From contig JAFIFU010000026.1 in the NCBI GenBank assembly GCA_020831885.1, positions 1 through 45,078 on the forward strand: DNA of 45,078 nucleotides, given 5' to 3'. Below are positions 2,047 to 45,047 of this stretch, in pieces (positions within the stretch are counted from its first letter, which is position 1; each line of letters starts with the position of its first letter). The notes under the pieces were generated by a model. It searched no databases. It was not told where the DNA came from and saw only the letters and a list, made by a program, of their open reading frames with translations. Position numbers and translations under genes: made by a program. The stretch comes from Ectothiorhodospiraceae bacterium (GTDB lineage: Bacteria > Pseudomonadota > Gammaproteobacteria > Nitrococcales > Aquisalimonadaceae).

Positions 2047-3171
2047 TCAGCCGGTGGCTCGGCCGCCGGGATCCATGCCGCGCACCTTGTCTCCGAGCCC
2101 GGCCAGAAGGTTGTCGAAGGAGTCGGCAAAGGCCTTAACGCCATCGGCTTCCAGCTTATCCGTCACCGCTTCGAGATCGATACCCAGCGCCGGCAGCTCC
2201 CGGATCAGTGCCGCTGCATCGTCCAGCCCGTCCGGGAGGCGCACCGCCGGGTCGCCGTGATCCAGGTAGGCGTCGTAGGTGGCCGGGGGCACCGTGTTGA
2301 CCGTGCGCGGCCCGATCAGGGCGTCCACATAGAGCACGTCGCTGTACTCGGGGTTCTTGGTGCCGGTGCTGGCCCAGAGTAGACGCTGTTCCTGGGCGCC
2401 CAGCCGGCGCAGCTCCTGGAAGCGCGGGCCGTCGAACAGGTCAAGGAAGTGGCGGTACGCCAGTTTGGCGTTGGCGATTGCCACGCGTCCGCGCCAGTCC
2501 TCCCGCTTGCCTTCCAGCTGAGGATCCACGGCGCTGTCCACGCGGCTGACGAAGAAGCTGGCCACCGAGGCCACGCCTTCCACGGGCAGGCCGCGACGTG
2601 CCCGCTCCTGCAGGCCGGTGATGAAGGCATCCGCCACCGCTTTGTAGCGGTCCACGGAAAACAGCAGGGTCACGTTGACGCTGATGCCTTCCCCGATGAG
2701 CGTTTCCACTGCGGGCAGGCCCTCCACCGTGGCCGGCACCTTGATCATGATGTTGGGGCGGTCGATCCATGCATGCAGCCGGCGCGCCTCGGCGACGGTG
2801 CCTTCGGTATTCCGGGCCAGGTGAGGGGAGACCTCGATGCTCACGTAGCCGTCGCGCTTGTCGGTGGCCTCATAGACCGGGCGCATCACGTCTGCCGCAT
2901 CCCGGATGTCAGCTACGGCCAGATGGTTGAACAATTCCGCCGCGTCGAGGCCCGGCTGCCGTCGCAGGATGTCCGCGATGACCGCATCGTACTGGTCTCC
3001 GCTGGAGATGGCCTTGTCGAAAATGGTGGGGTTCGACGTCACGCCCCGCAGGTCGTCCCGCTCCACCAGCCGGACCAGCTCGCCGGATTCCAGCATGCTC
3101 CGGTGGATGTTGTCGTACCAGACGCTTTGTCCCAGCGCGGTCAGTCGCTTCAGCGGATTCGGGGTGCTCAT
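2047..3171 (-). CDS. tal: Transaldolase, long form
   Basis: Transaldolase moves a dihydroxyacetone unit between sedoheptulose-7-phosphate and glyceraldehyde-3-phosphate in the non-oxidative pentose phosphate pathway. The protein has 374 residues, longer than E. coli TalB (about 317), and fits the long Tal subfamily also seen in cyanobacteria and actinobacteria. The family N-terminal motif RGVTSNPTIFDKAI is at 42-55, and the Schiff-base lysine is probably Lys144 in IMIKVPATVEG. An upstream ATG at 3222 would add 17 residues without family character; ATG 3171 gives the expected N-terminus (LKRLTALGQSVWYDNI). It stands directly upstream of apaG-apaH, an unusual neighbour for those genes. Confidence 0.93.
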   Translation of the reverse strand: MSTPNPLKRLTALGQSVWYDNIHRSMLESGELVRLVERDDLRGVTSNPTIFDKAISSGDQYDAVIADILRRQPGLDAAELFNHLAVADIRDAADVMRPVYEATDKRDGYVSIEVSPHLARNTEGTVAEARRLHAWIDRPNIMIKVPATVEGLPAVETLIGEGISVNVTLLFSVDRYKAVADAFITGLQERARRGLPVEGVASVASFFVSRVDSAVDPQLEGKREDWRGRVAIANAKLAYRHFLDLFDGPRFQELRRLGAQEQRLLWASTGTKNPEYSDVLYVDALIGPRTVNTVPPATYDAYLDHGDPAVRLPDGLDDAAALIRELPALGIDLEAVTDKLEADGVKAFADSFDNLLAGLGDKVRGMDPGGRATG

Positions 3172-3338
3172 GTTGGGTGAACCTTTGCCGTCGAGTGTAT
3201 TGCGGGTGCCCGGGCAGGGCACGGGATACCGGTCAGCGATGCGATAGTCTACCGGGAGTGACAGTGCCCGTGAAAGTCGCGTTCCCTCCGGCCCGTGTCA
3301 ACGTCGTGCCGCCGCGTTCGGGAAATGTTAACTCCGTC

Positions 3339-3368
3339 TTGTTTTTCGCCGGGAAGTTCTGGAATAAT
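3339..3368 (+). promoter_or_regulatory. Candidate sigma-70 promoter for the 30-codon gene
   Basis: TTGTTT (3339-3344) and AATAAT (3363-3368) are separated by 18 nt, inside a stretch that is far more AT-rich than the rest of the window. It would give a leader of roughly 90 nt before the ATG at 3466. This is a by-eye match only. Confidence 0.4.
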
Positions 3369-3465
3369 CAAAAACCTATGCTCCCCAGGTGGAGTGGATA
3401 CGTAAGTAGAAAGATAACAAGCTGTCCATCCTGTGGTGGAAGTTCGACTGTCTTGGAAGGAAGCC

Positions 3466-3558
3466 ATGACCAACCGTCCGAAGCGTTTTCCGAAGTTTGA
3501 TCCGCTGGCCCTGCTGGCCGTTGGTGTGGGTGTCGGTGTACTGATCACGCTGCTTTAA
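3466..3558 (+). CDS. Putative 30-residue single-span membrane miniprotein
   Basis: An open frame of 30 codons starts at ATG 3466 and ends at TAA 3556-3558. The predicted peptide has a basic, proline-containing head (MTNRPKRFPKFDP) followed by a 17-residue hydrophobic Gly/Val/Leu-rich segment that runs to the C-terminus, as in a single-pass inner-membrane protein with its N-terminus inside. It has a strong Shine-Dalgarno GGAAGG at 3456-3461, 4 nt before the ATG, and a candidate promoter about 100 nt upstream. It is the only plus-strand gene between ampD and amgK and faces uspA. I do not recognise the family and no function can be assigned. Supporting evidence is RBS, promoter, composition and isolation, not homology. 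Confidence 0.6.
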   Translation: MTNRPKRFPKFDPLALLAVGVGVGVLITLL

Positions 3559-3601
3559 GGAAGCACTGATCTATTCCCAGGGAATAGATCAGTGCTTCCT
3601 T
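3557..3601. repeat. 45-nt palindrome (22-bp arms), IS5-like ends and likely bidirectional terminator
   Basis: Arms 3557-3578 and 3580-3601 are perfect reverse complements around one central base. Each arm carries GGAAGCACTGATCTATTCCC, the repeat also found at 14371, 27758, 37996 and 45028. The left arm begins inside the stop codon of the miniprotein gene (TTTAA then GGAAGC). The palindrome lies between the convergent 3' ends of that gene and uspA, so the RNA hairpin could stop or protect both transcripts, although no long U-run follows. The shape is that of two terminal inverted repeats placed tip to tip, a minimal MITE-like element. No exact target duplication is visible: TTAA is on the left, TTGG on the right. 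Confidence 0.75.
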
Positions 3602-3664: not shown

Positions 3665-4111
3665 TCAGACCCGAACGGCGAGCACATCACAGCGGGCGCC
3701 CTGAAGGACCGCACCGGCAGTGGACCCGAGCAGCAGCGCCAGTCCGTGGCGGCTGTGACTGCCGACCACGATCAGATCGCATTCCAGCGCGTGGGCGTGC
3801 TCCACGATCTCCTGCCGGGTATAGCCGGCACTGACCACGCACCGGGCGCGTTCCAGCCGGAAACGCTCGGCTACCCGCTGCAGGCGTGATTCCGCGGCGC
3901 GCATCATGTCCTCGTGGATATCCACCTGGGTGGAGCCGAGGAATTCCCCCATGCTGTCAATCGGGATGTGTTCCACCACATGCAGGAGGCAGATCTCGGC
4001 CCCGTGGAGCTGCGCGAGCTGGACGGCACGCGCGCAGACCGTGTCCGCATCCTCGCCGAAGTCCACACACAGCAGCAGGCGCTCGTAGGGTCTGGCTTCC
4101 GGTTCCGTCAT
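3665..4111 (-). CDS. Universal stress protein, UspA family
   Basis: A 148-residue single-domain Usp protein. The N-terminal strand LLLCVDFGEDAD carries the usual aspartate, and the C-terminal nucleotide-binding signature G-2x-G-9x-G-S/T is seen in VVGSHSRHGLALLLGSTAGAVL (about 116-137), so it is probably of the ATP-binding class. Usp proteins respond to starvation and membrane or oxidative stress; the partner here is unknown. The start ATG at 4111 has GAGG 5 nt upstream. It follows rsmA by 37 nt and so may be the last gene of the lptD-surA-pdxA-rsmA transcript, a position normally held by apaG. Confidence 0.9.
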   Translation of the reverse strand: MTEPEARPYERLLLCVDFGEDADTVCARAVQLAQLHGAEICLLHVVEHIPIDSMGEFLGSTQVDIHEDMMRAAESRLQRVAERFRLERARCVVSAGYTRQEIVEHAHALECDLIVVGSHSRHGLALLLGSTAGAVLQGARCDVLAVRV

Positions 4112-4148: not shown

Positions 4149-4952
4149 TCATATCCTCAGTATATCGCGGTCGGATGCCCCGTTCGCCAGGCGGACGAAG
4201 TCCGCCACCGTCAACTGTTCCGGCCGTTGCCCCGGGTCGATACCCGCACGCTCCATGACCCCGGTGTCCAGCAGCCCCCGCAGGGCGTTGCGCAGAGTCT
4301 TGCGCCGCTGGGAAAACGCCTGCGCCACCAGCCGGGAGAGCAGTGCGGGATCCCGGGCCGGTTGCTCCGGCGGCCGCGGGCGCAGGCGGACAATGGCGGA
4401 TTCCACCCGCGGCGGTGGATGAAACGCGCCGGGATGGACCAGGAACAGCCGTTCCACCTGGCAGTGGTACTGGATCATCACGGACAGCCGCCCGTAGACC
4501 TTGCTGCCCGGTCCGGCGCGCATGCGGTCCACCACCTCTCTCTGCAGCATGAAGTGCATGTCGAGAATGCGCGGCGCCGCTTCCAGAATGTGGAACAGGA
4601 GCGGCGTGGAGATGTTGTAGGGCAGGTTGCCCACCACGCGGATCCGTTCGCAATCGGGCCGGACGCTGCCGAAATCGAAATCCAGCGCATCCCCCTGGTA
4701 GAGGTCCAGTGTGCCCAGCGTCTCCGCGCCGGCCTGCAGGCGGGGGATCAGGTCCCGGTCCATTTCAATGGCCACCAGCCGGCCGGCCCGTTCCAGCAAG
4801 GGGAACGTCAGCGCACCCTGCCCCGGGCCGATCTCCACCAGGCAGTCCTCCGGTTCCGGCCGGATGGCGGCGATGATCCGCCCGATCACCGAAGCGTCAT
4901 GCAGGAAGTTCTGACCGAACCGTTTTCGCGGCCTGTGGGGTATGTGGTTCAT
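4149..4952 (-). CDS. rsmA: 16S rRNA dimethyladenosine transferase RsmA (KsgA)
   Basis: RsmA uses S-adenosylmethionine to dimethylate A1518 and A1519 in helix 45 of 16S rRNA late in 30S assembly. The 267-residue protein has the family start RKRFGQNFLHD at 9-19, the SAM-binding loop VEIGPGQGALT and the catalytic NLPYNIS motif. An in-frame ATG at 4994 adds 14 residues with no ribosome-binding site; ATG 4952 matches the E. coli N-terminal length. It follows pdxA by 95 nt in the classic lptD-surA-pdxA-rsmA order, but the next gene is uspA, with apaG-apaH displaced beyond tal. Confidence 0.96.
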   Translation of the reverse strand: MNHIPHRPRKRFGQNFLHDASVIGRIIAAIRPEPEDCLVEIGPGQGALTFPLLERAGRLVAIEMDRDLIPRLQAGAETLGTLDLYQGDALDFDFGSVRPDCERIRVVGNLPYNISTPLLFHILEAAPRILDMHFMLQREVVDRMRAGPGSKVYGRLSVMIQYHCQVERLFLVHPGAFHPPPRVESAIVRLRPRPPEQPARDPALLSRLVAQAFSQRRKTLRNALRGLLDTGVMERAGIDPGQRPEQLTVADFVRLANGASDRDILRI

Positions 4953-5047
4953 GGGCGGATGATGCCATGGGGGAAGACGGGCGGGTAGCTTCATCCGGGG
5001 TTCCGGGGATCGCCGGGCCGACCTTTCGAAGCCAGAATGAAAAAAGC

Positions 5048-27757: not shown

Positions 27758-27777
27758 GGAAGCACTGATCGATTCCC
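27758..27777 (+). repeat. IS5-like end repeat next to the gatB stop codon
   Basis: GGAAGCACTGATCGATTCCC differs at one position from the copies at 3559 and starts 1 nt after the gatB TGA. It is a single end with no partner in reverse orientation before hslO. Confidence 0.7.
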
Positions 27778-37995: not shown

Positions 37996-38038
37996 GGAAG
38001 CTCTGATCTGTTCCCAAGGGAAACCCTGATTCGCTCCC
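37996..38038 (+). repeat. Two degenerate IS5-like end repeats in the hemA/TPR gap
   Basis: GGAAGCTCTGATCTGTTCCC (37996-38015, 18 of 20 matches to consensus) is followed directly by a decayed direct copy, GGAAACCCTGATTCGCTCCC (38019-38038). They occupy part of the 324-nt divergent gap 37870-38193; the rest of the gap holds the two candidate promoters and nothing else I recognise. Confidence 0.6.
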
Positions 38039-45027: not shown

Positions 45028-45047
45028 GGAAGCGCTGATCTATTCCC
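45028..45047 (+). repeat. IS5-like end repeat abutting the ychF stop codon
   Basis: GGAAGCGCTGATCTATTCCC starts at the base after the ychF TAG; the preceding four bases are CTAG, a YTAR word. One mismatch to the palindrome arms at 3557-3601. The last 31 nt of the window (45048-45078) show nothing else I can name, and any reverse-oriented partner would lie outside. Confidence 0.7.

Follow-up and report, generated by a model that had tools for sequence, protein, structure and literature searches.

A predicted membrane miniprotein gene under purifying selection between tal and usp, with a putative wider family in Gammaproteobacteria

The window analyzed here, a whole stretch of 45,078 nucleotides (contig JAFIFU010000026.1 of an Ectothiorhodospiraceae bacterium), carries a very short gene in an AT-rich gap, with usp convergent and tal divergent to it (Table 1). 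Both neighbors lie on the minus strand and are identified by Pfam (PF00582 and PF00923), in agreement with a sequence-only reading of this DNA, which had placed a small gene on the plus strand between a pentose-phosphate gene and a stress-protein gene. LptD, SurA, PdxA, and ApaG of the surrounding block are also confirmed by Pfam. The gene that we call apaH matches only the general phosphoesterase domain PF00149 in Pfam, and its name is therefore our own reading.

The reading frame runs from ATG (3466-3468) to TAA (3556-3558), and its 30-aa product (window 3466-3558, plus strand) is MTNRPKRFPKFDPLALLAVGVGVGVLITLL. The residues ahead of the helix carry a net charge of +3, the most hydrophobic 18-residue segment begins at residue 13 (Kyte-Doolittle 2.46), and an AlphaFold2 model with three sequences as input places a helix at residues 13-29 (mean pLDDT 81, pTM 0.33); the basic head and the hydrophobic span to the C terminus that had been described from the letters are thus borne out, the helix as a prediction. 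With fewer than 50 residues and one membrane helix, the product falls into the predicted size class of small bitopic accessory membrane proteins. It lacks the layout of a Sec signal peptide, in that no cleavage site follows the hydrophobic core and the window protein stops where the helix ends. A longer version starting at GTG 3433 (41 aa) was rejected because the frame upstream of the ATG matches only the ribosome-site codons in G006, the nearest relative, and not other orthologs; an antisense ORF at 3249-3548 was set aside, since the codon pattern is that of a plus-strand frame.

Upstream of the gene, GC content is 0.46 across positions 3350-3449 versus mostly 0.6-0.7 in the surroundings, the contrast that the sequence-only reading had remarked upon. 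That reading had also described a strong ribosome-binding site and a promoter belonging to the gene itself, and both descriptions hold in part. The GGAAGG is present, with a spacing of 5 nt rather than the 4 nt given. As for the promoter, TTGTTT (3339-3344), 18 nt, and then TGG-AATAAT (3360-3368) read as the extended -10 type, and the exact TGGAATAATCA stands 100 to 126 nt ahead of the start codon in the window's genome (G000) and in G006, G007, and G001, with one copy in the whole 4.13-Mb genome; the upstream regions of the remaining five orthologs have no exact copy, and a consensus promoter scan of this upstream region found no site. From these letters we infer that TTGTTT and TGGAATAATCA may form an extended -10 promoter of the miniprotein gene. 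A TAGTCTAACGGTT-like stretch also lies upstream of tal (window about 3239-3256) and at the same place in G001, G002, G003, and G006; this may be the minus-strand promoter of tal.

Table 1. Features at and around the miniprotein gene (window coordinates)
Feature	Position	Strand	Basis
tal, transaldolase, divergent neighbor	2047..3165	-	Pfam PF00923, NCBIfam NF002881; neighbors in relatives
Possible -35 element TTGTTT, 3/6 to consensus	3339..3344	+	Sequence; CTGTTT in G006; missed by consensus promoter scan
Conserved extended -10-like TGGAATAATCA	3360..3370	+	Exact in 4/9 upstream regions, window's included; single exact genome copy
Shine-Dalgarno-like GGAAGG, gap to ATG 5 nt	3455..3460	+	Sequence; identical in G006
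Predicted membrane miniprotein gene, 30 codons plus stop	3466..3558	+	Orthologs; mostly third-position changes versus nearest; start shared, stop position similar
Conserved core, residues 10-30: K10-F11-D12 cap and single predicted helix with G24 (small, D+12) and T28 (D+16)	3493..3555	+	Hydrophobicity, AlphaFold2, motif rows
Perfect 22-nt inverted repeat, 1-nt center, overlapping last two stop-codon bases	3557..3601		Two dispersed-repeat ends back to back
usp, universal stress protein, convergent neighbor	3665..4111	-	Pfam PF00582; adjoins gene in relatives
ksgA/rsmA, member of conserved block	4149..4994	-	TIGR00755; block in relatives

The taxonomic-family sample comprised 14 genomes, and a protein search matched 10 of them at E<=1; the match in G002 was discounted as an unrelated 415-residue frame. 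Intact orthologs of 28-33 aa adjoin usp in eight of the 13 other family genomes, with identities to the window of 90% (G006), 70% (G013 and G007), and 47-60% (G012, G011, G004, G003, and G001), and none has a stop or frameshift inside the frame. An intact frame in near relatives was the test that the sequence-only reading had set for itself in advance, and it also called for a comparison of synonymous and nonsynonymous change. The window and G006 are separated by 16 synonymous and three nonsynonymous differences (pN/pS 0.07), with 15 of the 19 changes at codon position 3. When the same changes were placed at random, an outcome as conservative arose in 0 of 20,000 trials for G006, 0 of 20,000 for G013, and 38 of 20,000 for G007; the remaining 27 pairs among the eight compared sequences give pN/pS of 0.20-0.63 at synonymous sites near saturation. 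The miniprotein frame is under purifying selection in near relatives. Five of the 14 family genomes have ksgA and no significant profile match, so the gene is dispensable in some lineages: in G008, G009, and G010, ksgA adjoins apaG and neither usp nor tal was found between them, and in G002 and G005, which retain usp and tal, the gaps of about 280 and about 120 bases hold no such ORF.

Could the frame be a chance ORF? It is short, and the promoter scan was negative. The orthologs in the family, the permutation test, and the conserved chromosomal site led us to reject this explanation, the homology of the wider groups by hhalign (below) also speaks against it, and we leave it next to no probability. 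On sequence grounds, it is nearly certain that this is a real gene, which selection has maintained at a single chromosomal location.

Past the stop codon, the segment 3545-3620 (76 nt) folds at -45.6 kcal/mol (z -9.35), a strong hairpin between convergent genes. It is built from a dispersed repeat, GGAAGCACTGATCTATTCCC, which has 229 genome sites with three or fewer mismatches (0 for the reversed pattern) and lies in the window at 3557-3601, 27758-27777, 37996-38015, and 45028-45047; similar sites are also present in relatives. Among 30 loci that were read, an inverted partner lies 139-185 nt away in eight (a MITE-like arrangement), several copies are near contig ends, and 20 come after TAA, TAG, or TGA, 17 of those as TTAA or CTAG. 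The idea that the repeat marks gene ends was dropped, as the TTAA/CTAG pattern looks like target-site choice. Eight of the nine orthologs, the window's included, stop directly past the helix, and G004 does so three residues later. In the other orthologs the repeat was not found at the 3' end of the gene, and their stop is nevertheless similar; the ORF therefore does not owe its origin to the repeat. At that place, G006 has a GC-rich hairpin and then TTTT past the stop codon, which resembles a terminator (L033 after base 992). The hairpin just past the stop, together with some 91 nt from the inferred transcription start to the ATG, might suggest a regulatory RNA or leader in which the ORF is incidental. 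Selection on the codon pattern speaks against a sole RNA function, however, and the gene downstream, usp, is convergent; moreover, the hairpin is a dispersed repeat that is not seen behind the G006 gene, and the 3' hairpin region has no Rfam match at the gathering score. We hold this explanation to be very improbable.

How far does the gene extend beyond the family? At E<=1e-3, a first profile, made from the nine close orthologs, matched 18 of the 369 genomes in the class sample, the window's among them, and a broader profile, A4, made from 31 members, some of them from the same class sample, matched 60 of the 369 at E<=0.01, representing 48 of 272 genera. Within the order, 16 of 54 genomes matched at E<=1e-3, and three weaker matches (G053, G034, and G045) share the same site, giving at least 19 of 54. 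In a draw from the phylum, of unspecified class composition, 17 of 398 genomes matched at E<=1e-3, all from the same class; plasmid searches with the window peptide and one fau-linked member gave no match.

We read 60 loci. Of the 46 non-window A4 matches down to E 2.9e-4, these include 45 (the one passed over is a second match in G392), and the searches of the order and the family supplied the other 15. As far as the stretches show (neighbors by tblastn), 35 of the 60 lie in the block lptD-surA-pdxA-ksgA-(usp)-mini-(tal)-apaG-apaH, the same site as in the window, and in 28 of these the miniprotein gene is flanked by ksgA at one end and by apaG or apaH at the other. Every one of the 190 block genes seen runs on the strand opposite to it; extra genes can intervene, and the gap to the nearest block gene found reaches 3.6 kb. 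A further 13 of the 60 adjoin fau/ygfA and/or an EVE-domain gene, four adjoin a gene with PF13660 and PF05161, which we read as glycerate-kinase-like (gck), four adjoin tal only, and four are without an assigned site. The query genes fau, zapA, and EVE were checked by Pfam. The 15 further phylum matches (the 17 minus G000 and G014) all proved to adjoin fau and zapA. The location is thus conserved: the window gene sits at the ksgA-apaG block site, on the opposite strand, and this is one of several sites for the family.

The fau/EVE sister group (L224-L238 and 13 loci among L179-L207) is mostly 31-55 aa, ranging to 95, and also occurs in the 5.4- to 6.7-Mb genomes of one family; ORFs so short easily escape annotation. 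The ZapAB-ssrS-fau-EVE region, home of the fau-linked members, is covered by a published study whose main text contains neither "small membrane" nor "transmembrane" (0 occurrences each; PMC7641849). At the fau spot where the family sits in other genomes, the toxin-antitoxin pair ibsC/sibC is found in E. coli K-12 (L240 2352-2492), which may be a coincidence or a replacement. That shared spot, along with the small size, basic head, and single helix, fits a type I toxin-like hydrophobic peptide of the Ibs, TisB, or Hok kind under antisense RNA control. Toxins of type I, however, tend to have a patchy distribution and are often present in several copies, and here we find one significant copy in the genome, at a fixed site and with a conserved motif, which makes a toxin quite improbable in our estimation.

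Lengths vary considerably over the 60 loci, with start codons chosen by script: 38 are of 26-73 aa, one is of 95 aa, and 21 are of 98-165 aa. The 16 loci fetched from the window's order are uniformly short, at 28-35 aa. Of the 21 long forms (98-165 aa), all but one have Trp or Phe as the last residue, and in 20 an AxA-like site follows the helix by a lenient pattern. The long forms (among L164-L204), mostly in ksgA-apaG or tal context, look exported, with signal-peptide-like starts, and their ends, an alternating hydrophobic stretch and then Trp/Phe, resemble the last strand of an outer-membrane protein; L199, the sole long form without the Trp/Phe end, is shorter than its near relative L204.

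What short and long forms share is a motif. The rows compared number 62 (the 60 loci, the window, and G006); because they are related and profile-selected, the counts are descriptive. Asp stands at the helix start in 61 of 62, D12 in the window. Pro precedes it in 55 of 62, a majority and not an invariant, and the window (F11) and G006 carry Phe there; Lys or Arg stands ahead of the Pro position in 57. Farther along the helix come Leu at D+5 (55 of 62), Val at D+9 (50 of 62), Gly, Ala, or Ser at D+12 (62 of 62; G24 in the window), and Thr or Ser at D+16 (61 of 62; T28), all four on the same helix face. The net charge of the head is at least +1 in every row except L208 (0). Motif-anchored blocks, in which the row of L196, anchored on the wrong Asp, was retained, were compared by hhalign. 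The 18 short rows scored 36.9 against the 15 fau-linked rows and 44.6 against the 16 long rows, and the long rows scored 48.7 against the fau-linked ones; of 100 controls per test, in which head columns and helix columns were permuted separately, none reached the real score (maxima, 19.6, 26.8, and 26.7, respectively). The motif is conserved, and judged by it the window peptide belongs, as its short form, to a larger gammaproteobacterial family whose cap is usually [KR]-P-D, with other loci and long forms, which goes beyond anything the sequence-only reading had claimed.

The long forms invite two further explanations. In the first, the miniprotein is a signal-peptide remnant: an envelope protein of 98-165 aa would have lost its mature part, leaving a 30-residue rest that is decaying or merely occupies the export machinery. 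The long relatives, mostly at the same site, with their AxA-like site and Trp/Phe end (20 of 21 each), are what such an ancestor would look like. A remnant would hardly stay at 28-35 aa in all 16 fetched loci of the order, however, or remain under purifying selection in orthologs free of stops and frameshifts. Furthermore, head plus helix is better conserved than the remainder in 67 of 69 within-group pairs (groups that we chose ourselves, covering 35 of the 60 loci, with hydrophobic composition inflating identity somewhat), the opposite of what is expected of ordinary signal peptides, which should be less conserved than the mature part. We therefore consider a remnant improbable. In the second explanation, the helix is a specialized export or retention signal recognized by a dedicated factor (a protease, sorting, or assembly protein) in long envelope proteins and in the free peptide alike, and the free peptide signals to that factor. 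Short and long forms have the same helix, the block also contains lptD and surA, and the long forms end in an aromatic residue, as outer-membrane proteins do. Yet none of the 17 fau/EVE- and gck-linked loci (33-95 aa) has the Trp/Phe end, and the dedicated factor remains hypothetical. We think a specialized signal rather unlikely, and it overlaps the accessory protein described below.

Known families offer little by way of a name. The best Pfam match of the window peptide is Sec61_beta (PF03911), at 16.3 bits against a gathering cutoff of 27, and three of 31 members matched it at E<=1 (best E 0.0063); this identity was rejected as below the curated cutoff. The Sec61_beta profile has a short polar N-terminal part, then P, and then a single C-terminal helix, a shape that the miniproteins share. 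None of the members tried had a Pfam or NCBIfam match above the cutoff, four members searched against PHROGs gave one weak match (E 0.016), to a family with no function assigned, and the best match among solved structures (E 0.31) is at chance level. A search of open-licence PMC text found no paper naming such a family in its title or the start of its abstract, and motif strings were also unmatched. The family is unnamed in the protein-family libraries searched (Pfam, NCBIfam, and PHROGs).

CydX, AcrZ, KdpF, and MgtS are small single-pass inner-membrane accessory proteins of Proteobacteria. Like them, the miniprotein is under 50 aa, has one predicted helix, and is easily missed by annotation, and by analogy it would likely bind a partner. 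Compared by description, it is unlike them in having no adjoining membrane-complex gene and is set apart by its [KR]PD-type cap and small-xxx-Thr face. Collections of small bacterial proteins such as sORFdb (PMC11796252) and GMSC (PMC11364881) may hold members.

Based on these observations, we posit an accessory role for the miniprotein in the inner membrane, which it would cross once in N-in orientation, docking to a partner via its conserved helix face, a mechanism that we regard as on balance probable. In this mechanism, the basic N terminus would remain cytoplasmic, the one helix would span the membrane, and the C terminus would lie at the periplasmic face. The conserved unit would be made up of the helix with its one conserved face and of a cap (usually of the [KR]-P-D type) situated at the cytoplasmic edge; the charged cap would set register and topology, and the conserved face would most likely pack against a membrane partner, making the miniprotein an accessory subunit. 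Expression, topology, partner binding, and partner identity are all points that we infer. Against this mechanism stand the five of 14 family genomes without the gene and the fact that no partner gene is common to all members, the neighbors differing among the ksgA, fau, gck, and tal sites. The likelihoods that we attach to the competing explanations overlap and do not sum to one.

We speculate further, and tentatively, that one ancient helix module of fewer than 20 residues, with a cap that is usually [KR]PD and a small-xxx-Thr face, could serve in three roles across Gammaproteobacteria, all of them docking to one shared inner-membrane partner. The roles would be those of free miniproteins, of versions with a short tail next to the growth-phase region of fau/zapA (6S RNA), and of a membrane anchor or signal in small envelope proteins whose last residue is aromatic, as in outer-membrane proteins. 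The window gene would then be the module at its minimum. We see this as possible rather than probable.

In many gammaproteobacteria, then, a selected and positionally fixed miniprotein family lies among textbook housekeeping genes, ksgA, apaG, tal, and fau. How can a membrane helix of fewer than 20 residues outdo the protein attached to it in conservation? The family offers a test of that question, and in the search for a partner, the positions that hardly vary are obvious targets.
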